Assembly (NCBI GenBank): GCA_003158175.1
Contig: PMHJ01000014.1
Location: forward strand, 134,739 to 181,135
Source of the DNA: Candidatus Cybelea septentrionalis
Lineage (GTDB): Bacteria; Vulcanimicrobiota; Vulcanimicrobiia; Vulcanimicrobiales; Vulcanimicrobiaceae
Direction: 5' to 3'
Length of the DNA stretch: 46,397 bases
The notes below the pieces were generated by a model. It made no database searches and was not told the DNA's origin. It saw only the letters and a list, made by a program, of their open reading frames with translations. This document shows, piece by piece, positions 33,810 through 43,890 of the stretch (position 1 is its first letter; the number at the start of each line of letters is the position of its first letter). Made by a program: the position numbers and the translations under genes.

Positions 33810-35090
33810 TCAGCTGCGCTGATGCAGGAAGAACTTTGTCCCCTTGGGCGCTTTGATTGGGACGAACAGCCGCGGCTTCTGAGAAAAATCGAAGCAATCT
33901 GCGGCCGGCGACGTCGCCCGCTTATCGGCGGCCGCGAGTTGACCTAAACCGTAAGTGTCCTCCGCAAAGCGCAAAACGCTTGCGGTCTCGTACTCCACGT
34001 GCGCCACGTAATCGCGCTTCGCGTACGGCGAGATCACGAGCAGCGGAACGCGGAAACCCAAACCGTCGAAGTTCTCGTACGGCGGGGGAACGTGATCGTA
34101 GAAGCCGCCCCAATCGTCCCGCTGTACGAAGATCGCCGTCGAATCCCAGAACTTGCTCTTGCCGATGGTGTTGACCAGCGCCGCGACCCATGATGGCCCG
34201 TACCCGCCCCCGCAGGCGCCATTGTCGGAATCGAGACAGGTCGGCGTAATCCACGTAAAGTTTGCGAGCTTGCCGCCCGCGACGTCTTTCAGGAACTGCT
34301 GCGGGGGCGTTACGATGTGCGCTTGCCAGTAAGTACCCTTGATCGAGGCATAGCTATCGGTGCCGGTCGTGCTCGTGTAGTACCGCCACGAAAGCCCGGC
34401 GTTCTCGAGTTCTCCGCCCAGTGTCTGGTACTCGAAGCACGGGAACTCCGACCGGCCAAATGTGCGCTTTTCCGTGAGTGTCTGGATCGTGTCGCCCGGC
34501 GCGCCATCGCAACCCCAGTTGGCATTCGGGAGGTCGACCGCGCGACCCGCTTGCGCAGCGATGGTGTACTGGCTCGCCGCAAAGCTCTGGTCGAGCCGCG
34601 AGGCGAACATCTTGTCGCCGACGACCCATTCATGCGCCATCTCGAAATACGGCTTCGACTCGTCGTGCGGTACGTAGACGTACTGTGGATTGGCAGGTCC
34701 GCCGAACGACTCTTCCTTGTTAAAGCCGTTCATCTTGCAATCGATTCCCGGGAGACGGTCGGTTCCGTTGCAGGCCGCGAACATCGCGCCCGCCGAGTCA
34801 TCGATCTTGTAGGCTTTTTTCAGCGATACGGGCTGAAGCGTGATCGTCTGACCATTCGAGTTCATACCCTTCGGAACGGTATTTGCGCCCGGATAGCCTT
34901 GGAAGAGATTGTCGAAGCTCCGACGCTCCTGCACGATATAGACGATATGCTTGATCTTGCCGCCGGCGGTCGCGGCAGCGAGCGGCGGCTGCATGTCATC
35001 CTGAGCCCGTCGAAGGACAGCGCATCCCGATAGCAATGCCACAGAGACAGCTAGGCTTAGGGCGTACTTACCAAGATTCGAGCTCTTCAT
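33810..35090 (-). CDS. PF04185 phosphoesterase-like lipoprotein with altered active site
   Basis: 426 aa. Signal peptide ends LLSGC (Cys23), followed directly by the repeat-encoded AVLRRAQDDMQPP. The domain matches the paralog at 13342 (HIVYIVQERRSFDNLFQGYP, WGCDGAPGDTIQTLTEKRT, FTWITPTCLDSD, RDDWGGFYDHVPP), but two catalytic-region motifs differ: ENRS is ERRS (residues 55-58) and SHQY is ASQY. In AcpA-type enzymes the Asn of ENRS binds the metal, so activity may be lost or changed. ATG at 35090 is chosen for the signal peptide and the upstream GGGAGCGCGGAG leader. Coupled with the hydrolase downstream. Confidence 0.85.
   Translation of the reverse strand: MKSSNLGKYALSLAVSVALLSGCAVLRRAQDDMQPPLAAATAGGKIKHIVYIVQERRSFDNLFQGYPGANTVPKGMNSNGQTITLQPVSLKKAYKIDDSAGAMFAACNGTDRLPGIDCKMNGFNKEESFGGPANPQYVYVPHDESKPYFEMAHEWVVGDKMFASRLDQSFAASQYTIAAQAGRAVDLPNANWGCDGAPGDTIQTLTEKRTFGRSEFPCFEYQTLGGELENAGLSWRYYTSTTGTDSYASIKGTYWQAHIVTPPQQFLKDVAGGKLANFTWITPTCLDSDNGACGGGYGPSWVAALVNTIGKSKFWDSTAIFVQRDDWGGFYDHVPPPYENFDGLGFRVPLLVISPYAKRDYVAHVEYETASVLRFAEDTYGLGQLAAADKRATSPAADCFDFSQKPRLFVPIKAPKGTKFFLHQRS
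34992..35018 (-). repeat. Lipobox-adjacent repeat, copy 1
   Basis: Core read on the minus strand is GTCCTTCGACGGGCTCAGG followed by ATGACATG. It encodes VLRRAQDDM starting two codons after the lipobox Cys of the phosphoesterase. The core is nearly identical to the other four copies in the window. Confidence 0.85.
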
Positions 35091-35334
35091 GCTCCGCGCT
35101 CCCCCGACCCTCGTAATGGAATCGAGGCATAAGGACGTTCGGCGCTTAGACCTCGGTTCCGGCTTCCCCAGCGCGAGCAACTGGGAGGCTCCGCAAGACC
35201 TCACGGAAGCGTAGACGCTTACTCCGCTGGGATAGCTGACAGTAGCGGCGAACGTCGGTAGCCGCTAGTCCGTTTAGCTTCCGGAGGTCGAGAAAAAAGT
35301 GCACTCGTGTCTACTCGTAAAAGGAGAACCGCAA

Positions 35335-36351
35335 TTGAAAACGCCTGGCTTCGTGAAATACGCCGGTGCTATGGTTGCACTCGCGATATTATCAGCTTGC
35401 GGCGGCGCCTCGACGGTCGCACCGCCAACCGCTGCGCTCAATGCGACCTACGTAGGTAGGACGCTGTTCGTGAATGGGAGGCCGGTAACGGCAGCGCGCC
35501 TAAGCCCGCTGCCCACTTACGCCACCATTCTTCCTGACCGGCGTACGAAGTCGAAGACCTTAGAGTACGTCTTCAACCAATACAGTAGCTACGCCAGCAT
35601 TTTCGACTATCCCAAGAGCGATCAGGAGATCGGTATGATCAAGGGTCTCGGTGGCCAAGGGTGCACGAACGTCCTTTACGGCTACGGGAATAAGACGTTC
35701 TGGAACGTCGGGGGCCAGAACCAGATCGAGGAGTTCAAGATCAAAAAGAAGTTGATCAAGACGCTGTCTGTCGCCTACTCTTTTCCATCCAGCTGCGCCA
35801 TGAATACTAGCGGCGACCTTGCAGTCGGGATCTTGTATGCGTCGGGGGCGGGTGGCGGCGACGTCGTCATATTCAAGAACGCGAGCGGCTCGGGTACCGC
35901 TTACACCACGCCGTTGGACGAAGAGTTCTTCGATGGCTACGACAACCAGGGTAATCTCTTCGCCGACGGCTTTACCGGCGACCGCTCGGGCTTTGCGCTC
36001 GTCGAGCTCCCGAAGGGCAGCACTAAATTCGAAACAATCAAGACGAGCAACAGGGTGGATTTCCCTGGCTCCGTACAGTGGGACGGTACGTACCTCACCG
36101 TCTTCGATCAGGATACGGCCGAGATGTATCAATACACCGTCAGCGGAACGAAGGCGACGTTGAAGGGCACCGTAACGTTCTCGGGTTCCGGCGACTGCGC
36201 GCAGACCTGGATCGTTCAGGGCCTTGTCTATTGCGGAGATGCGGGTAACGGCAACGGCGAGGTTTTCAACTACCCGGCCGGCGGTTCACCGACTGCAACG
36301 TTTACGGGCCAGTTCGATGTGCCGCTCGGCGTGGTGGCAGCGAAGAGATAA
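35335..36351 (+). CDS. Beta-propeller lipoprotein without the post-lipobox repeat
   Basis: 338 aa, TTG start. AAGGAG at 35321-35326 lies 8 nt before TTG, and paralogs begin at the same point (MNTPGLLKCAGAVVALAIVS). Lipobox VALAILSACGG. The region after Cys is GGASTVAPPTAALN, against GSALRQAQDDMTIAPSAATLN in the copies at 41680 and 42853, so this gene looks like the version before insertion. The mature part: GRTLFVNGRPVTAARL, IFDYPKSDQEIGMIKGLGGQ, SSCAMNTSGDLAVGI and terminal NYPAGGSPTATFTG. Propeller of the local type; function unknown. Confidence 0.85.
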   Translation: MKTPGFVKYAGAMVALAILSACGGASTVAPPTAALNATYVGRTLFVNGRPVTAARLSPLPTYATILPDRRTKSKTLEYVFNQYSSYASIFDYPKSDQEIGMIKGLGGQGCTNVLYGYGNKTFWNVGGQNQIEEFKIKKKLIKTLSVAYSFPSSCAMNTSGDLAVGILYASGAGGGDVVIFKNASGSGTAYTTPLDEEFFDGYDNQGNLFADGFTGDRSGFALVELPKGSTKFETIKTSNRVDFPGSVQWDGTYLTVFDQDTAEMYQYTVSGTKATLKGTVTFSGSGDCAQTWIVQGLVYCGDAGNGNGEVFNYPAGGSPTATFTGQFDVPLGVVAAKR

Positions 36352-36379
36352 TCTGCGCTTCTCGTTTTACGCTGAGTCG

Positions 36380-36452
36380 AAAACGCAGAGCACCGGCTTA
36401 TTCGAATACGTGGGTGCCCTCGTGGCCCTGCGCCTCAGTGGGAGCGCGGAGA
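36380..36452 (+). other. Decayed signal-peptide remnant
   Basis: In one frame this stretch encodes KTQSTGLFEYVGALVALRLS, which lines up with the local signal peptides (KTPGFVKYAGAMVALAILS) but has lost its start and lipobox Cys. The frame runs on past the live ATG (36453) to a stop at 36464. Confidence 0.5.
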
Positions 36453-37484
36453 ATGAAGACCTTTAGTCTTGGCACGGACGCCCTAGGCGCAGGCGTCGCG
36501 GTTGCGTTGCTCGCCGGCTGCGGTGTCCTTCGACAGGCTCAGGATGACATGCAGCCGCCGGGCGCGATGCCGCGCACCACGATCGCCATGCGGGCGGCAC
36601 AACGCTCTGGATTCGGAATCCCAGCTCCGGTCTCGGCAAAGAGCGGCATCTACGTCAGCGAGAACCTGTCTTCAAGATCCGACGTCTTCGGCTACGCAAA
36701 CAACAATCGGAGCAACGGGCCGCCGATTTGCAGCGAAAACGCCAGTTCCACGTACGATCTCGCAGTTGACGATAAAGGCGATCTGATCGTTCCTGAATAC
36801 AATGCGATCGCAATCTTTAAGGGACCATCCATGTGCGGACGAAAGCTCGGGTCGCTTCACACGATTTGGGACGACGATTATCCGGTCGACGCAACTAGCT
36901 CCGACGCTGAAACGGGAACGATCGCGGTCGGTGTCATCCAGGACGCTGGAAGCGGCGTCGGCAGCATCGAGCTTTGTACACTTAAGAGCGGCTGTAAGAC
37001 AAACCTCACACACGGATCTGCAATGAACCTGGTTTTTGCAGTTGCAATGAGCAAGAAAGGCGACTGCTGGGCGTCTTCCGCAACGCCGACCGCGCTTACC
37101 TATTTCAGAGGCTGTTCAGGCTCCGGGCAACCGGCGACCGGTTATGCGAATCCATCCGCAGGCGGCCTCGACATTGACAAGAACGGAAACCTGGTTTCCA
37201 TTAGCTGTTCGGTAGTTAGTTGCTCAACTCCGGCGCTGTACGTTTATTCTGGATGTAAACCGCACTGCAAGAAGATCGGCGGCCCATTCTCAATGCAAGG
37301 CGCGTCGATGTACGGACACCTCAACGAAGACAGCTCGCGGTTTGCCACCGCAGATTACCAGTACGGTCAGATCGACATTTACAAATATGCTCCTATGGGC
37401 ATTACATACACGTACAGTTTCGATAACGGACTGTCGGCAGGTGCGCGCATGGGCGCGGCATACAATCCGCGTTCGAGAGAGTAA
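36453..37484 (+). CDS. Beta-propeller lipoprotein with post-lipobox repeat
   Basis: 343 aa. Signal peptide MKTFSLGTDALGAGVAVALL with lipobox AGC, then GVLRQAQDDMQPPGAMP. The mature part is a Cys-rich propeller variant (GIYVSENLSSRSDVFGYANN, DLAVDDKGDLIVPEYNAI, GLDIDKNGNLVSISC). ATG at 36453 follows the leader GGGAGCGCGGAGA. The upstream open frame is not preceded by a start with a signal peptide. Its cysteines (about ten) are more numerous than in neighbours. Function unknown. Confidence 0.8.
   Translation: MKTFSLGTDALGAGVAVALLAGCGVLRQAQDDMQPPGAMPRTTIAMRAAQRSGFGIPAPVSAKSGIYVSENLSSRSDVFGYANNNRSNGPPICSENASSTYDLAVDDKGDLIVPEYNAIAIFKGPSMCGRKLGSLHTIWDDDYPVDATSSDAETGTIAVGVIQDAGSGVGSIELCTLKSGCKTNLTHGSAMNLVFAVAMSKKGDCWASSATPTALTYFRGCSGSGQPATGYANPSAGGLDIDKNGNLVSISCSVVSCSTPALYVYSGCKPHCKKIGGPFSMQGASMYGHLNEDSSRFATADYQYGQIDIYKYAPMGITYTYSFDNGLSAGARMGAAYNPRSRE
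36525..36551 (+). repeat. Lipobox-adjacent repeat, copy 2
   Basis: GTCCTTCGACAGGCTCAGG followed by ATGACATG. Encodes VLRQAQDDM two codons after the lipobox Cys. Confidence 0.85.
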
Positions 37485-37487
37485 GGG

Positions 37488-37739
37488 ATGAGGCGAATGA
37501 CTCTCTCGCAAGTACGGAAGGCGCTAAGCGGCTGCGTGGCTGCGACAATGCTCGCGGGCTGCGTCGTCCTTCGAGAGGCTCAGGATGACATGCAGCCGCC
37601 GATCGCCGCGCCCGGCGCGATGCCACAAACCTCTGCGATCGCAACGCACGTCGCTCGCGGCGGACTAGGACCGTTACTCTACGTGGGTGGTTTCGAGCTC
37701 TCGATGTACGCGCTGGGCAGCTCAACGCCGCTCCACTAG
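37488..37739 (+). pseudogene. 5' half of a split beta-propeller lipoprotein
   Basis: 83 codons: signal peptide, lipobox MLAGC, VVLREAQDDMQPPIAAPGAM, and the first blade strand (GPLLYVGGFELSMYALGSST). The frame stops at TAG 37737. The continuing protein resumes in the same frame after an 18-nt insertion that holds this TAG and a TGA; removing it would restore TPLH-VAKVNPPIYKV. So the two halves were one gene of about 366 codons. ATG 37488 lies 3 nt after the previous gene's stop; ATG 37497 is possible. As it stands only an exported short peptide would be made. Confidence 0.75.
37566..37592 (+). repeat. Lipobox-adjacent repeat, copy 3
   Basis: GTCCTTCGAGAGGCTCAGG followed by ATGACATG. Encodes VLREAQDDM two codons after the lipobox Cys. 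Confidence 0.85.
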
Positions 37740-37773
37740 CCAAGGTGAATCCACGTAGCCAAGGTGAATCCAC
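37737..37773 (+). repeat. 18-nt near-tandem duplication with two stops
   Basis: TAGCCAAGGTGAATCCAC occurs at 37737-37754 and again at 37756-37773 with one G between. In the gene frame the first copy reads TAG CCA AGG TGA, so it breaks the lipoprotein; the second copy is read in the original phase. Net gain is 18 nt, so frame is kept. Confidence 0.85.
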
Positions 37774-38603
37774 CTATCTACAAGGTCGCCATGGCGCTCG
37801 ATTTGCACGGTCACCTTTGCGAGGCGAACGGAGAGATAACCTATGCAAAGCTCTTCGAGTACGACGCGGATAGCCTGAAATTTCGGAGAGGGCTGAGTGG
37901 CGTAGGAGCCTACGCCGCACTTGTGGCCGATCATCTGGGATATCTCTATGCATCCACGGGCGGCGGAGACATTGAGGTCTATGCCCCCGGTTGCACGCAC
38001 CGCGTGAACGTTATCCATCGCGGCGTGGACGTTGTTGGGGATCTGGTCTTCGATCACTCGGGAAATCTCTATGCGGGCATGCAGCCTCACTACGCGGTGA
38101 GCGTTTACGCTCCATCGAAACGACCGGGGCACATGAAGCTCGTTCGGCAGATACGCGATGGCGTCAGCGCACCGGGCCGGCTCGCTATCGGGCCGTCGGG
38201 CGACCTCTTCGTCGCAAATTGGGACTATGAAACGAAATCCGCCTACATTACCGTCTACAAGCCGGGCGGCGCGAAGCCGGTGCTGACAATCACGAAGGGC
38301 TTTAAAGTCCCCAGGGCGCTCGCGGTGGACTCAAAGGGGCGGCTCTACGTAGCTGCTCTAGATTACCGGGTGCGGTCCGGCGGCTGGATCTCGGTTTATC
38401 CACCTGGCGGCTCGCAGCCGGTACGGAAAGTGCATATCTCCAACCCGGTGGCGCTCGCAATCGATCCGTCCGACAATTTGTACGTTGCGAATCAAGCGAA
38501 ACACAACTCCGTGCTTGTCTACAGCGTTGACGCTACGAAACTGTTGCAAACCATCAAATTGAGTGCCGATCAACCGAGTGCGCTCCTCATCGGCTCGCCG
38601 TAA
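37764..38603 (+). CDS. 3' half of the split lipoprotein (NHL-like propeller)
   Basis: 279 aa from a GTG (37764), no signal peptide of its own. Blades: LVADHLGYLYASTGGGDIEV, LVFDHSGNLYAGMQPHYAVS, LAIGPSGDLFVANWDY, LAVDSKGRLYVAALDYR, LAIDPSDNLYVANQAK. The pattern is a complete set of NHL-type blades lacking only the first one encoded upstream. No Shine-Dalgarno for the GTG is evident, so it may not be translated independently; stop readthrough is conceivable but unsupported. Without a signal peptide any product would stay in the cytoplasm. Confidence 0.6.
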   Translation: MNPPIYKVAMALDLHGHLCEANGEITYAKLFEYDADSLKFRRGLSGVGAYAALVADHLGYLYASTGGGDIEVYAPGCTHRVNVIHRGVDVVGDLVFDHSGNLYAGMQPHYAVSVYAPSKRPGHMKLVRQIRDGVSAPGRLAIGPSGDLFVANWDYETKSAYITVYKPGGAKPVLTITKGFKVPRALAVDSKGRLYVAALDYRVRSGGWISVYPPGGSQPVRKVHISNPVALAIDPSDNLYVANQAKHNSVLVYSVDATKLLQTIKLSADQPSALLIGSP

Positions 38604-38660
38604 GCGCGCCTGCCGCGAAGCCAACCGTGGCGCGTGGCCTATACGATGCGAGGCGTGGAA

Positions 38661-38678
38661 GCGGGGTAGTTTCCCCGC
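38661..38678. terminator. Possible weak hairpin between convergent genes
   Basis: GCGGGG and CCCCGC form a 6-bp stem around TAGTTT. There is no T-run on either side, so it is a weak candidate for a bidirectional terminator between the stops at 38603 (+) and 38818 (-). Confidence 0.25.
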
Positions 38679-38817
38679 GGGTCGGTGCTTTCGCCCTACG
38701 GTGATGGCCGGCTGAAATAGCTTCCAGTACAGAAGTACGCTGCACCAATGCCCCTGAAGGAAGAGCTCTTCGTTGATAAGCCCGCTGCGCACAAATGATT
38801 ATCGCGGGCGCGACACA

Positions 38818-40668
38818 TCAGACGGTATTCGCCCAGCATTTCGTCTGCACATCGTATGTATGGATCGGCGCCACGTTGCCGTAAGCGTGGGCATCATAGA
38901 CGCGAACGTGATGCGCTGCGCCGAATCCGGGCGTTGTCCGCGGACCATCGAATACATATAGCTTTCCGCTTGCGTCGATTGCCAGCGCCTGTGGGGCCAC
39001 GAGCTGCGTGGCAGGACCCGCTATGCGAGTAATAGGCCCCACGTTGCCCGATGAGCCGCGCGCAAAGACTAAAATGTTATTCGCACCCGTGTTGGCCACA
39101 TAAACGGCTCCGTCGCGGTCAACCGCAAGACCAAGCGGGTGATTGAGTTCCGTTCTCGCTCCCGACAGCACGCCTTGCGTGCCATCCGTACCTACGGTGA
39201 CGATCGCACTGTTCGAAGCGGAGGAAAGATAGAAGTCCCCTCCGTCATCCACGGCAAACGCGTCCATATTACGGCCGAAAGTCGTGGCAAATACCGTGCT
39301 CTTCCAGCCCGACGCCGAAGCGGTATCCTTAGGGAAACGTGTGATCACACCATCGCTCGAAGCGGCAAAGATCGAGCCGTCTTGGTCGGTAGCGATGAAC
39401 TCCGGATCGTGCAGGTCTAGCGACTTATTCTCGGCAGTCGAACTGCGAGCTGCCCGAGCGAGACCGTATTTTTCGATTCCGCCGAATTTGTCGGCGACGA
39501 TCAACGAGCCCGCATCCAGAGCGACGCCCCAGCCGCGCGACGCAAGGCGCGTTTCGGCGGGCCACTTCGTCGGCACTTGCCGCGCAGCGCCGCGAAAGAG
39601 CGCCGTCCCATCAGATCCCAAGATTGCAACGTCGCCGGTGCTTGCGTCAACCGCGATGCGAAATGGATGCGTTACCGTAGCGGATGGCTTACGAATCCAC
39701 AGCGGCTTGGCGTCACCACTCTGTTGCGGTGCGAACGCGAGAATCTCGCTGTTGCTCAGGCTTGTGGGAGCGTCTGCCTGAAGAGCAAGAATGTCTCCGG
39801 CTGCATCGACGGCCAGTTCGGGCGAAAGAAGCTCCGTACGGGGACCGGCTATCGTGCGCACGACCCGTGGAGAGCGATGGCTTAGGTCGATGACGGCAAT
39901 CGTAGAATCGGTGAAACCGTTCGAATTGCGCGCACCGCTTACGACAATGCGACTCGAATGGTCAAAGACAAGGTTAAGCACTACCTCGTAGCCGAGCAGT
40001 TGCTTTAGGCTGACCGCTTTTTCGGGAGCGATGTTTCCACTCCGACCCGCGGCGTAACAAAACAGAAAGTTAGACTGATCTAGCGCGCATAGCCTGCCCA
40101 TTTTGTCGACCGCGACGGCAATGGGCGACCTCAACTGCGTTCTGGCACCGGCGATGAAAACACTAAGGGCGGGATGTGGGGAAAGTAAAGTTCCTCTACT
40201 TATGGCTGCATCACTCTGGTCCACCGAATAGGCGTAGCGATCGTTTGCGGCGATCGAGGTCTCCTTTGATCCGCTCAAACCACCTGATCCGCTCAAACCA
40301 CCACCTAAGGACGCGTTACGGCGAGGGCTACTCGCTATCAGAGAAACGGCTCCCGAGGTGAGATCAATACGATAAACCAAGTTCGGATGCTGCGCGGTGT
40401 TCTCAAGCAGGTACATCGCGCCGTCGCCAGTTAGAGTGTAGCTCTGCGCAAATGCAAAGCTCTCTTCGTCGGGCGGAGGTTGCGGCCATCGGGTGACATT
40501 CCCCAGGATCGACGAGTTTGGGCTGATGAACCGGCTCTCGCCGCGCACGACGATGTTTCCCTTATTGTCGACCGCGACCCCCGCGTTGTCGCAATTCGAA
40601 CTGCAGGCGGCCGCAAGGATTAGCAAGGCAAAGGAAAGGCTCGCGCAGAGACATCTCATCACATGCAT
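38818..40668 (-). CDS. Large NHL-repeat lipoprotein
   Basis: 616 aa. Signal peptide CASLSFALLILAAACSS with lipobox Cys. It has a first set of blades (VAVDNKGNIVVRG, IAVAVDKMGRLCALDQSN, LAVDAAGDILALQ) and a second NHL set near the C-terminus (LGLAVDRDGAVYVANTGAN, ALAIDASGKLYVFDG), which suggests two propellers. An 18-bp in-frame tandem repeat encodes GGLSGSGGLSGS near residue 130. ATG 40668 or ATG 40659 could start it. No upstream SD. Function unknown; likely surface-exposed. Confidence 0.82.
   Translation of the reverse strand: MHVMRCLCASLSFALLILAAACSSNCDNAGVAVDNKGNIVVRGESRFISPNSSILGNVTRWPQPPPDEESFAFAQSYTLTGDGAMYLLENTAQHPNLVYRIDLTSGAVSLIASSPRRNASLGGGLSGSGGLSGSKETSIAANDRYAYSVDQSDAAISRGTLLSPHPALSVFIAGARTQLRSPIAVAVDKMGRLCALDQSNFLFCYAAGRSGNIAPEKAVSLKQLLGYEVVLNLVFDHSSRIVVSGARNSNGFTDSTIAVIDLSHRSPRVVRTIAGPRTELLSPELAVDAAGDILALQADAPTSLSNSEILAFAPQQSGDAKPLWIRKPSATVTHPFRIAVDASTGDVAILGSDGTALFRGAARQVPTKWPAETRLASRGWGVALDAGSLIVADKFGGIEKYGLARAARSSTAENKSLDLHDPEFIATDQDGSIFAASSDGVITRFPKDTASASGWKSTVFATTFGRNMDAFAVDDGGDFYLSSASNSAIVTVGTDGTQGVLSGARTELNHPLGLAVDRDGAVYVANTGANNILVFARGSSGNVGPITRIAGPATQLVAPQALAIDASGKLYVFDGPRTTPGFGAAHHVRVYDAHAYGNVAPIHTYDVQTKCWANTV
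40267..40302 (-). repeat. 18-bp in-frame tandem repeat in NHL lipoprotein
   Basis: TGATCCGCTCAAACCACC occurs twice in direct succession (40267-40284 and 40285-40302). On the minus strand it encodes two GGLSGS units, probably a linker that can vary in length. Confidence 0.85.
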
Positions 40669-40971
40669 GGCAAACGACTTTCTCGCTCGTCCTAAGACTC
40701 CACTGCTATACAACCACCAGAGCCCGCTTGCGCTCGTTCTAGGGGGGCTTAAGAATCCAGTCAACCAGGAAGACCCCGCCGATTCAAATCAGAAGAGCGA
40801 TCGCCGCTTGCGTCCAAGAGACGCACACCGCGCGCTGAAGCTAGGACTCATCGCTGCAGTCATGGATGCTGGTCCGCTCCCAGCACATGTTGAGTTCGTA
40901 TCCTCGTCGGGGATTATTCCTGGCTAGTAATTTAAGACGAATTCCCCCCGCACGTCTCCTCCGCCCGAGCG
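40669..40971. other. Intergenic region without recognised gene
   Basis: 303 bp between two minus-strand genes. The only noted element is the 12-mer CTGCTATACAAC at 40703-40714, about 35-46 nt upstream of the lipoprotein ATG and also present upstream of the arylsulfatase. A plus-strand frame covering part of it lacks any recognisable domain. I see nothing else. Confidence 0.4.
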
Positions 40972-41424
40972 TTAACCGTATGTGAGATCGGTGCTCTGTC
41001 CGACTTCGATAATATAACCGTCAGGATCGCGGATGTAGCAGCGAATCTCGCCGTACTTCGCAATCGGTTCCGTGAGGAACTCGGCTCCTCGACTTTTCCA
41101 TAATTCGTAGCACGCTTGAATATCCGCAACGCGGATATTCATAAAACTGCTGATCTTATCCGGGTCGACGGGAACGCTGAGCGTTATTGTCGGCTTGTCC
41201 GGGGTGGGCCCGCCCCCGACGTTGACAATGAGCCACGTATTCGCGATCTGAATGTGCCCAGACGCACCTTTGCTATCGCCTCGGCTCAGAATGCGACCGC
41301 CGAAGACCCTCTCATAGAAATCGGCCGATCGGTCGATGTCGGCGACGGTGATAAAATGCGTGACGGTGAACCCGTCGCGCGGGGGCATCTCATAGCTCTT
41401 CTGTTCGATTTGTATGCCGCTCAT
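40972..41424 (-). CDS. VOC (glyoxalase/bleomycin resistance) family protein
   Basis: 150 aa, a single two-module VOC fold. FTVTHFITVADIDRSADFYERVFGGRIL opens module one; IRVADIQACYELWKSRGAEFLTEP and YIRDPDGYIIEVGQ close module two. Metal ligands are probably His (THF), Glu (IIEVGQ) and one or two others. It may be a dioxygenase, isomerase or resistance-type protein; the substrate cannot be read. ATG at 41424 has a purine-rich AGGAG upstream. Confidence 0.88.
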   Translation of the reverse strand: MSGIQIEQKSYEMPPRDGFTVTHFITVADIDRSADFYERVFGGRILSRGDSKGASGHIQIANTWLIVNVGGGPTPDKPTITLSVPVDPDKISSFMNIRVADIQACYELWKSRGAEFLTEPIAKYGEIRCYIRDPDGYIIEVGQSTDLTYG

Positions 41425-41562
41425 TACACTCCTCATCCGGTGACCCTGGTTCTTTCGTATTCGTACCTGCTGCCGCCCCCCATCATGCGCGAGACAACCA
41501 CGGGACCGAAGTCCTGCAGGTAACCCTTGGTGTCTTGGCTCGTCGAGGGAGAGTCCGGCGTT

Positions 41563-42722
41563 CGGTCGAAAACCCAACCGACACCACTGTTGCTATTCGG
41601 CGTGCTGAATGCTAACTACGCCTCACATTGCAAGAAGCCGAGCGCGACGCCTGCTATCTACTTCAAAGGAGCAAGGTTAATGAACACCCCTGGTTTACTT
41701 AAGTGCGCCGGCGCTGTCGTTGCGCTCGCAATTGTTTCGGCGTGCGGAAGCGCCCTCCGACAAGCTCAGGATGACATGACGATCGCGCCGTCAGCCGCTA
41801 CGCTCAACGCGACCTATGTAGGTAGGACGCTGTTCGTGAATGGGAGGCCGGTAACGGCGGCCAGGCTCAACCCACTGCCGCGTTACGCGGAGCTTGTACC
41901 GGATAAATCGAAATCAAAGAACTACGAGTACATCATCAACTATTACGGTACCTACGCCAGCATTTTCAGCTATCCAAAAAGCACTGCGATGATTGGTCAG
42001 ATTACTGGCGCCGGCGGCCAAGGGTGTACCAACGTTTTATACGGCTATGGGAAAAAGATTATCTGGAACGCGGGGCGTACGAACGATCTAATTTCCGAAT
42101 ACAAGGTTCCAGACAAGCTGATCAAGACGCTGTCTCTCGACTACACGTACACATCCAGCTGCGCCATGAATACTAGTGGCGATATTGCAGTGGGAATCCT
42201 ATTGGGTAATTCTTACAGTGCCGGCGGTCAGGTCGTGATCTTCAAGAACGCATCCGGCTCGGGCACTGTGTACAACACGCCGTTGGACGAAGAGTTCTTC
42301 GATGGCTACGACAATCAGGGTAATCTCTTCGCCGACGGCTTTACCGGCGGCCGCTCCTCGGGGTTCGCGCTCGTCGAGCTTCCCAAGGGCAGCAGCAAAT
42401 TCGTCACGATCAAAACGAGCAACTCTCCGGGGTTTCCTGGCTCGGTGCAGTGGGATGGCACCTACCTCACCGTGTTCGATCAGTACACGAGTGAGACGTA
42501 TCAGTACACGGTTAGTGGAACGACGGCGACGTTGAAGAACACCGTACAATACACCGGGGCTAGCGACTGCGCGCAGACCTGGATCGTTAAAGGCCTGCTG
42601 TATTGCGGCGACGCAGGAAATGACGGCGGCGAGGTTTTCAACTACCCGGCCGGCGGTTCGCCGACGGCAGTACTTACGGGCAATTTCGACACTCCGCTCG
42701 GCGTTACAGCAGCGAAGAAATA
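41563..42722 (+). repeat. Tandem duplication, first copy
   Basis: Leader (from CGGTCGAAAACC) plus whole gene. The second copy runs 42781-43889. In the first copy about 45 bp of leader are present that are missing in the second. The coding parts are close to identical in long blocks, with the main difference around residues 195-215. Confidence 0.75.
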
Positions 42723-42723
42723 G
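41680..42723 (+). CDS. Beta-propeller lipoprotein, tandem copy A
   Basis: 347 aa. ATG at 41680 with AAAGGAG upstream; signal peptide MNTPGLLKCAGAVVALAIVS, lipobox SAC, then GSALRQAQDDMTIAPSAATLN. The mature part: FVNGRPVTAARLNPLPRYAE, IFSYPKSTAMIGQITGAGG, SSCAMNTSGDIAVGI, FDGYDNQGNLFADGFTGG, terminal VFNYPAGGSPTAVLTGNFD. Highly similar to the copies at 42853 and 35335. Residues differ mainly near GFTGGRSSGFALVELPKG. Probably surface-displayed; ligand unknown. Confidence 0.87.
   Translation: MNTPGLLKCAGAVVALAIVSACGSALRQAQDDMTIAPSAATLNATYVGRTLFVNGRPVTAARLNPLPRYAELVPDKSKSKNYEYIINYYGTYASIFSYPKSTAMIGQITGAGGQGCTNVLYGYGKKIIWNAGRTNDLISEYKVPDKLIKTLSLDYTYTSSCAMNTSGDIAVGILLGNSYSAGGQVVIFKNASGSGTVYNTPLDEEFFDGYDNQGNLFADGFTGGRSSGFALVELPKGSSKFVTIKTSNSPGFPGSVQWDGTYLTVFDQYTSETYQYTVSGTTATLKNTVQYTGASDCAQTWIVKGLLYCGDAGNDGGEVFNYPAGGSPTAVLTGNFDTPLGVTAAKK
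41752..41778 (+). repeat. Lipobox-adjacent repeat, copy 4
   Basis: GCCCTCCGACAAGCTCAGG followed by ATGACATG. Encodes ALRQAQDDM two codons after the lipobox Cys. Confidence 0.85.
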
Positions 42724-42724
42724 T

Positions 42725-42764
42725 TACTTCATCAAGGAACAAGGTTAACGAATACGCTCACGGA
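42725..42764 (+). other. Decayed copy of the gene leader and start
   Basis: CTTCATCAAGGAACAAGG and then TTAACGAATACGCTCACGG, compared with the live leaders CTTCAAAGGAGCAAGG and TTAATGAACACCCCTGG. The ATG has become ACG, and the Shine-Dalgarno has changed. It lies just after copy A and before the leader of copy B. Confidence 0.6.
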
Positions 42765-42852
42765 GGCGCGGCCCCGATGCCGGTCGAAAACCACGCCTCA
42801 CATTGCAAAGCCGAGCGCGGCGCCTGCTATCTACTTCAAAGGAGCAAGGTTA

Positions 42853-43890
42853 ATGAACACCCCTGGTTTACTTAAGTGCGCCGGCGCCGTCGTGGCACTC
42901 GTAATTGTTTCGGCGTGCGGGAGCGCCCTTCGACAAGCTCAGGATGACATGACGGTCGCGCCGTCAGCCGCTACGCTCAACGCGACCTATGTAGGTAGGA
43001 CGCTGTTTGTGAATGGGAGGCCGGTAACGGCGGCGAGGCTGAACCCACTGCCGCGTTACGCAGAGCTCGTACCGGATAAATCGAAGTCAAAGAACTACGA
43101 CTACATCTTCAACGACTACGATACCTACGCCAGCATTTTCAACTATCCGAAGAGCGTTCAGCAGATCGGTAGGATTACTGGCGCCGGCGGGCAAGGGTGT
43201 ACCAACGTTTTGTACGGCTATGGGAAAAAGATTATCTGGAACGCCGGGCGCACGAACGACCTGATTTCCGAATACAAGGTTCCAAACACGCTGATCAAGA
43301 CGCTGTCTCTTGACTACACGTACACATCCAGCTGCGCCATGAATACGAGCGGCGATCTTGCAGTCGGAATCCTATTGGGTAATTCTTTCGGTGCCGGCGG
43401 TCAGGTCGTGATCTTCAAGAACGCGACCGGCTCGGGCACGGTGTACAATACGCCATTGTCCAAAGAGTATTTCGACGGCTACGATCCCAGCGGCGATCTC
43501 TTTGCTGACGGTTTCGGCTCGTCGAGCTATGACTTCGGAGTCGTCGAGCTTCCGAAGGGCAGCAGCAAATTCGTCACGATCAAAACGAGCAACTCTCCGG
43601 AGTTTCCTGGCTCGGTGCAGTGGGATGGCACCTACCTCACCGTGTTCGATCAGTACACGAGTGAGACGTATCAGTACACGGTTAGTGGAACGACGGCGAC
43701 GTTGAAGAACACGGTACAATACACCGGGGCTGGCGACTGCGCGCAGACTTGGATCGTTAAGGGCCTGCTGTACTGCGCCGACGCGGATGGCGGCGGCGAG
43801 GTCTTCAACTACCCGGCGGGCGGTTCACCGGCTGCGACGCTCACGGGAAACTTCGATGTCCCGCTTGGCGTGACGGCAGCGAAGAAATAG
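42853..43890 (+). CDS. Beta-propeller lipoprotein, tandem copy B
   Basis: 345 aa. Same leader, start and signal peptide as copy A; lipobox SACGSALRQAQDDMTVAPS. Divergence is concentrated around residues 200-220, where LSKEYFDGYDPSGDLFADGF and GSSSYDFGVVELPKG replace LDEEFFDGYDNQGNLFADGF and TGGRSSGFALVELPKG. The rest, including VQYTGAGDCAQTWIVKGLLY, is nearly unchanged. The pattern fits a recent duplication with local change in one blade. Function unknown. Confidence 0.87.
   Translation: MNTPGLLKCAGAVVALVIVSACGSALRQAQDDMTVAPSAATLNATYVGRTLFVNGRPVTAARLNPLPRYAELVPDKSKSKNYDYIFNDYDTYASIFNYPKSVQQIGRITGAGGQGCTNVLYGYGKKIIWNAGRTNDLISEYKVPNTLIKTLSLDYTYTSSCAMNTSGDLAVGILLGNSFGAGGQVVIFKNATGSGTVYNTPLSKEYFDGYDPSGDLFADGFGSSSYDFGVVELPKGSSKFVTIKTSNSPEFPGSVQWDGTYLTVFDQYTSETYQYTVSGTTATLKNTVQYTGAGDCAQTWIVKGLLYCADADGGGEVFNYPAGGSPAATLTGNFDVPLGVTAAKK
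42925..42951 (+). repeat. Lipobox-adjacent repeat, copy 5
   Basis: GCCCTTCGACAAGCTCAGG followed by ATGACATG. Encodes ALRQAQDDM two codons after the lipobox Cys. Confidence 0.85.

Follow-up and report, generated by a model that had tools for sequence, protein, structure and literature searches.

Palindromic repeats that also lie inside genes have been described in several bacteria. In the account of Di Nocera et al. (2013, PMC3733652), the GTAG- and CGTC-tagged repetitive extragenic palindromes (REPs) are small high-copy palindromes that also occur within genes, including those of DNA ligase and tRNA synthetase; the CGTC families, apparently without a dedicated transposase, are defined there by an unpaired CGTC or TGTC tag, an 8–9 bp stem, a loop of 4–5 bases, and a CCA tail. 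Rickettsia palindromic elements (RPE) are described as lying in frame in genes of unrelated function and are thought to be tolerated in unstructured segments (PMC10969869, PMC3733652, PMC2996958). PARCEL elements, as outlined in PMC2996958, are palindromic coding repeats, often in tandem; surface lipoproteins carry them, and a shuffling of the units inside genomes has been suggested. Here, we describe a short repeat that lies shortly behind the lipobox cysteine in five genes of a 46,397-nucleotide (nt) stretch of Candidatus Cybelea septentrionalis (GCA_003158175.1, contig PMHJ01000014.1, positions 134,739 to 181,135; hereafter, the window).

The common form of the repeat, GTCATCCTTCGACARGCTCAGGATGACA, is often followed by tandem partial units (periods of about 21–27 nt), and this canonical form folds into a 9-bp hairpin with an 11-base loop (z = −3.0), in which GTC pairs with GAC. 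With 143 copies in the genome, it agrees with the general description of a REP (a 20–40 bp palindrome of high copy number), and it shares with the GTAG and CGTC families of PMC3733652 its small size and its presence in DNA ligase and tRNA synthetase genes. It differs from the CGTC-tagged type in its paired GTC, its longer loop, the mixed bases after GACA, and the CCA tail, which was not seen, as judged from the published description and not from a consensus sequence; a lipobox preference is not mentioned for these REPs in the excerpts of PMC3733652. The REP-associated tyrosine transposase (RAYT; PF01797, Y1 transposase) was detected in none of the 18 genomes of the genus, with 5 of 14 known genomes positive as a control, which speaks against mobilization by RAYT and against a GTAG REP with its RAYT. 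The repeat resembles RPE as an in-frame palindrome in genes of unrelated function (LigA, adenosine deaminase, an IleS-type synthetase, a GidA/TrmFO-type protein, and others). RPE are set apart, by the descriptions in PMC10969869, PMC3733652, and PMC2996958, by their length of about 150 bp, an apparently different sequence, and no tie to lipoprotein anchors. PARCEL is similar in being an often tandem palindromic coding repeat of surface lipoproteins, but its units are described in PMC2996958 as 75 nt long, encoding a 25-residue amphipathic domain in unassigned ORFs, whereas the present units are 21–24 nt, add 21 nt net, and also occur in housekeeping genes. In the open-access literature, no lipobox-adjacent repeat pattern was found among the matches listed.

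The repeat beside the lipobox and across the genome

The 14-mer CTCAGGATGACATG has five exact matches in the window, at 34992 (−), 36538 (+), 37579 (+), 41765 (+), and 42938 (+), against a mean expectation of 0.17, and none of 100 shuffles gave five. A longer 23-mer search returned the identical five sites with 0–1 mismatch (chance expectation 0.00). All five copies encode LRxAQDDM in the frame of the host gene shortly 3′ of the lipobox Cys, as the initial annotation had noticed. The two-codon gap it gave was found in three genes (CAV, CGV, and CVV), and the other two have a gap of three residues (CGSA in both). These shuffles, together with a reversed-pattern control of 0, rule out a chance origin. 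The copies (from both searches and translation) and their surroundings are as follows.

33810..35090, − strand: PF04185 phosphoesterase with a lipoprotein signal peptide (PF04185 match and translation)
34992..35016, − strand: repeat copy, LRRAQDDM, in the phosphoesterase gene
35022..35180, − strand: phosphoesterase leader, sharing 127 of 158 nt with that of a different-bodied lipoprotein on contig C20; the match stops at the Cys codon
35335..36351, + strand: P0002, paralog without the repeat (homology)
35401..35412, + strand: empty site of P0002, directly 3′ of the Cys codon (compared in the 33-gene tree set)
36453..37484, + strand: P0003, leader/body chimera carrying the repeat (leader and body comparisons)
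36527..36551, + strand: repeat copy, LRQAQDDM, in P0003
36556..37661, + strand: segment with a duplicate on contig C7 (79.4% over 1118 nt) whose two genes are both empty
37488..38603, + strand: lipoprotein gene with the repeat, broken by two in-frame stops (translation)
37568..37592, + strand: repeat copy, LREAQDDM, in the broken gene at 37488
41680..42723, + strand: P0004, tandem paralog carrying the repeat (homology)
41754..41778, + strand: repeat copy, LRQAQDDM, in P0004
42853..43890, + strand: P0005, tandem paralog carrying the repeat (homology)
42927..42951, + strand: repeat copy, LRQAQDDM, in P0005

The hosts had been described as a phosphoesterase and four propeller lipoproteins. The PF04185 assignment is firm (E = 1.2e-40; the start was set by us at the ATG before KSSNLG). 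The word "propeller" is used because these proteins are homologous to a large family of lipoproteins, two scanned members of which share the leader and match PF10282; Pfam scans of P0002, P0003, and P0005 and NCBIfam scans of P0003 and P0005 gave no match. P0004 and P0005 are tandem duplicates with 89% identical proteins, and the copies at 41765 and 42938 are shared through this gene duplication. P0005-homologous loci in named genomes all come from metagenome-assembled genomes of Candidatus Eremiobacterota or Eremiobacteria (24/24), and the present genome is accordingly assigned to this phylum. PF04185 genes are strongly multiplied in the genus, every one of the 18 genomes giving 16 or more scored matches. 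The opposed copies 34992 (−) and 36538 (+), located in two leaders, enclose the gene at 35335, and an inversion between them would exchange the leaders in frame.

Genome-wide, the 14-mer occurs 16 times, and the 22-base core with up to three mismatches occurs in 143 copies (79 forward and 64 reverse; none for the reversed pattern), which confirms the earlier view of a dispersed repeat. Many of the 126 copies examined in context lie outside recognizable genes. Ten of them are adjacent to a lipobox, against an expectation, for 500 lipoproteins, of 0.034 with three offsets or 0.13 with twelve, so that the enrichment anticipated by the initial annotation is real; the ten represent fewer independent events because their host genes are related. 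Among the pattern-based lipobox calls, C47:17801 and C41:99825 were dropped by eye as non-signal peptides, and C5:5064, which the pattern had missed, was added on account of its leader, which is of the propeller-like family A. The lipobox site is a hot spot of the repeat. Of 255 leaders predicted by our own rule, in loci selected for protein homology, leader homology, or position, 14 have the repeat no more than 180 nt behind the Cys codon. Thirteen of these start at 3–9 nt in a single frame, ten of them in family A, and the remaining one is a degenerate copy 38 nt after the Cys codon. Because the pattern used to search relatives had a fixed two-codon gap, the loci it retrieved are skewed toward this spacing; L361, L362, L378, and L379 come from stretches chosen by position. 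In relatives, the same place is filled in GloVer proteins, a glycine-rich protein, a peptidase-like protein, a lactonase-type protein, and another phosphoesterase (genome G010), and some of these copies, including those in GloVer proteins, belong to a GGGTGAC subtype. Two neighboring GloVer lipoprotein genes of G010 (L360, C1:2700000-2706500; Cys at 1936 and 3325) have tandem arrays of 27-nt period directly behind the lipobox.

The lipoprotein copies form a distinct subtype. At least three mismatches between the 5′ and 3′ arms are present in 8 of 10, compared with 20 of 98 others, and they fold no better than shuffles (z = 1.3 and −0.7). Nine of the ten end in GACATG, compared with 2 of 98 others (Fisher p = 1.4e-10, the rows being not independent). 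This shared 3′ end points to one source, and a common source of the lipoprotein copies in this genome is likely. The codon after the LRxAQDD-type peptide in the 17 filled copies of relatives is ATG in six, ACG in seven, and another in four.

In the LRQAQDD frame, copies lie inside or between the matched domains of a DNA ligase, adenosine deaminase, diaminopimelate epimerase, a class I tRNA synthetase (IleS by our reading), a GidA/TrmFO-type protein, a Rieske oxygenase, and a formyltransferase. Reverse-strand frames are used in a penicillin-binding protein and by a second copy in the class I tRNA synthetase. Topoisomerase I, an amidohydrolase, and a menaquinone enzyme have the repeat outside the matched domain and were left out of this count. 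Among 16 rows of the genus covering the LigA loop, the core is read in another frame, FDKLRMT, in four (L402, L414, L416, and L411 with 0, 0, 1, and 2 mismatches), a remnant is present in one more (L403), and 11 lack the core within six mismatches. The adenosine deaminase loop is likewise variable in the protein alignment. This variation indicates that the same loops were filled more than once, in differing frames. The dispersed copies and the in-frame copies in housekeeping genes identify the repeat as a REP/RPE-like dispersed element that also enters coding DNA.

The ATG-ended core with up to one mismatch was found in 21 of 60 relative genomes, including all 18 of the genus. Fifteen plasmid records, most of them alphaproteobacterial, gave short, weak matches to a 37-base composite query (20–31 bases, E = 2e-4 to 0.4), and the exact 27-mer pattern matched three viral contigs; on the strength of these weak or few matches, the core is probably not confined to the phylum. 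In G010 (L373, C1:1902518-1903140), about two dozen repeat units form a tandem array with a spacing of mostly 25 bases.

Gain, loss, and codon changes at the lipobox site

The paralog at 35335 had been noted as an apparent empty site, and the comparison of filled and empty genes bears this out, with a difference of 21 nt net. This gene is the sister of a filled gene on C10 (support 100/96). For 33 family A bodies, of which 11 are filled and 22 empty, the tree requires at least seven changes between the filled and empty states, all forced by well-supported branches; 21–25 of 500 shuffles of the tree states were as low as seven. Both genes of the segment 36556–37661 are filled, and both genes of the matching C7 segment are empty. 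Several empty family A genes hold fragments of the repeat, such as GCTCAGGATGACA, and other copies have decayed. The repeat-bearing lipoprotein gene itself appears broken or truncated in several cases (37488–38603 in the window, C10:18997, and C15:120048). An ortholog, the G009 phosphoesterase (L221), has no repeat; because it is broken and has lost its lipobox as well, it was not counted as an empty site.

Codon changes from the consensus were counted as nonsynonymous to synonymous (N:S), for which the possible changes are 46:14. The ten lipoprotein copies of this genome gave 5:2, and 17 copies of relatives (all the filled ones listed, excluding repeated rows of the own genome) gave 15:3. No sign of purifying selection on the lipobox-adjacent peptide is seen in these counts, and its codons look neutral. 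The seven changes, the decay, and the neutral-looking codons make the site a labile one, which argues against the fixed lipoprotein tether proposed in the initial annotation. The repeat has the look of a passenger that is tolerated, gained, and lost in genes whose 5′ parts are themselves exchanged, and not of a conserved functional part.

Exchange of leaders among lipoprotein genes

The repeat is common to unrelated proteins, as had been claimed: the domain scans of the bodies differ. A composite leader ending QPPIGAPGAMPQ... has 58 matches in the own genome and is present in 17 of the 18 genomes of the genus (E up to 0.1). The bodies behind it or its filled form include PF10282 lactonase-type propellers, TIGR03803 GloVer proteins, PF12810 glycine-rich proteins, DUF642, PF04185, and a peptidase-like protein with a weak S8 match. 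At C18:13123, C24:4311, C24:6251, and window positions 35022–35180, near-identical upstream DNA and signal peptides precede propeller-like, GloVer, DUF642, and phosphoesterase bodies, mostly without the repeat. The phosphoesterase leader of the window is of the propeller type; the other phosphoesterases read carry different leaders. P0003 matches the phosphoesterase/C20-type leader at 65 of 79 nt upstream of Cys, compared with 42 of 80 for the C7 gene, and its downstream part follows the C7 gene, with a breakpoint near the repeat.

Similar leaders were found in 29 pairs, and in 21 of them the bodies are dissimilar (below 0.6 per residue, our own cut-off, with a background median of 0.32; genes recur among pairs). 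In 16 of these 21, neither gene has the repeat, and the repeat is therefore not needed for leader exchange, which is general among these lipoprotein genes. Most QPP-type leaders lack the repeat. When 46 leaders, nine of them filled, were compared over 140 nt upstream of Cys, each of five filled QPP-type leaders had an empty one as its closest match; a sixth in this genome (C10:18997), with a very short frame, was outside the comparison. The mean upstream scores were 14.2 for filled–filled, 15.6 for filled–empty, and 15.8 for empty–empty pairs (8.2 when shuffled). A single lineage of filled leaders was not seen. Unrelated hosts share the repeat partly because leaders, comprising upstream DNA, signal peptide, lipobox, and linker, are exchanged among bodies, an explanation that is new relative to the initial annotation.

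Proposed mechanism and alternatives

We propose, with a confidence somewhat above even, that a REP/RPE-like repeat is tolerated at the lipobox-proximal site and was spread there by duplication, leader recombination, and separate arrivals. The short dispersed repeat, open in several frames, would be tolerated at flexible coding sites, and a truncated form, mostly without the 5′ palindrome arm, may have repeatedly come to occupy the first codons after the lipobox Cys. The N terminus of a mature lipoprotein should be an unstructured tether, in which seven added residues (LRxAQDD) would do little harm. Within the genome, gene duplication multiplied the repeat, and recombination between leaders of similar sequence probably did so too; in relatives, it may also have arrived separately, and it decays and disappears as readily. 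Whole leaders, including the ribosome-binding site, are exchanged between lipoprotein genes, which in part brings the repeat to unrelated bodies. The dispersal, the position, the lability, and the leader exchange are observed, whereas recombination as the vehicle, a neutral peptide, and tolerance as the cause of retention are inferences. Several points weigh against this account. Tolerance alone leaves the precision of the position unexplained, as 13 of the 14 leader repeats start at 3–9 nt although the linker is longer, and a single frame is used at the lipobox compared with two in LigA. The codon counts are small and come from related copies, and the dispersed copies, an uneven yardstick with an N:S of 61:6 over 99 copies, weaken the claim of neutrality. 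Recombination tracts were not directly seen.

The precise position would be accounted for by a process that repeatedly inserts the element into lipobox-proximal DNA, with microhomology as a possible seed, and we regard this as possible, with reserve. The empty-site codons GGATCG and GGCTCG share GGAT and GCTC with the repeat, alignments place the gap around GGAT, and the same place is filled across leader classes and species, including the second phosphoesterase of G010 and the GGGTGAC-subtype GloVer proteins. However, such short matches should be common in a GC-rich genome, the 3′ end shared by nine of the ten own copies, unlike 96 of 98 others, indicates one source, and no PF01797 transposase was detected in any of the 18 genomes of the genus, in a search for this enzyme. 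A doubtful extension of these observations is a natural leader-swapping system that recombines cassettes, each made up of upstream DNA, a signal peptide, and a lipobox, onto lipoprotein bodies of unrelated kinds and steers the truncated repeat to the 3′ edge of the cassette, where it would mark or promote the junction and supply new tether sequence. It is unlikely that the repeat itself is the crossover point, by which the opposed copies could invert and swap their leaders: donor-leader homology does end where the repeat sits, at the Cys codon in the phosphoesterase and between Cys and the linker end in P0003, but most exchanged-leader pairs lack the repeat in both genes. Domestication, with the acidic LRxAQDD kept beside the lipid anchor for its aid to export or sorting, would fit the strict position, the single frame, and the tandem arrays in the two G010 genes; close paralogs without the repeat, the repeated changes of state, the decayed or partial copies, the codon counts, and the mostly empty QPP-type leaders make it quite improbable. 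That the five genes simply descend from a single ancestor is scarcely credible. The hosts at 41765 and 42938 are indeed duplicates, but the bodies of the set are unrelated, filled genes have empty sisters, and the filled leaders are closest to empty ones; the leader comparison, the tree, and the empty C7 segment refute it for the set as a whole.

Short in-frame palindromes are already known from Rickettsia and REP-rich genomes, and the present element adds a strict preference for the first codons after the lipidated Cys, which holds across unrelated lipoproteins and several species. Since empty and filled paralogs stand side by side, the gain, loss, and cost of the repeat are measurable in this system. 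The exchange of leaders is reminiscent of exon shuffling, here at the 5′ end of bacterial genes, and merits a study of its own.

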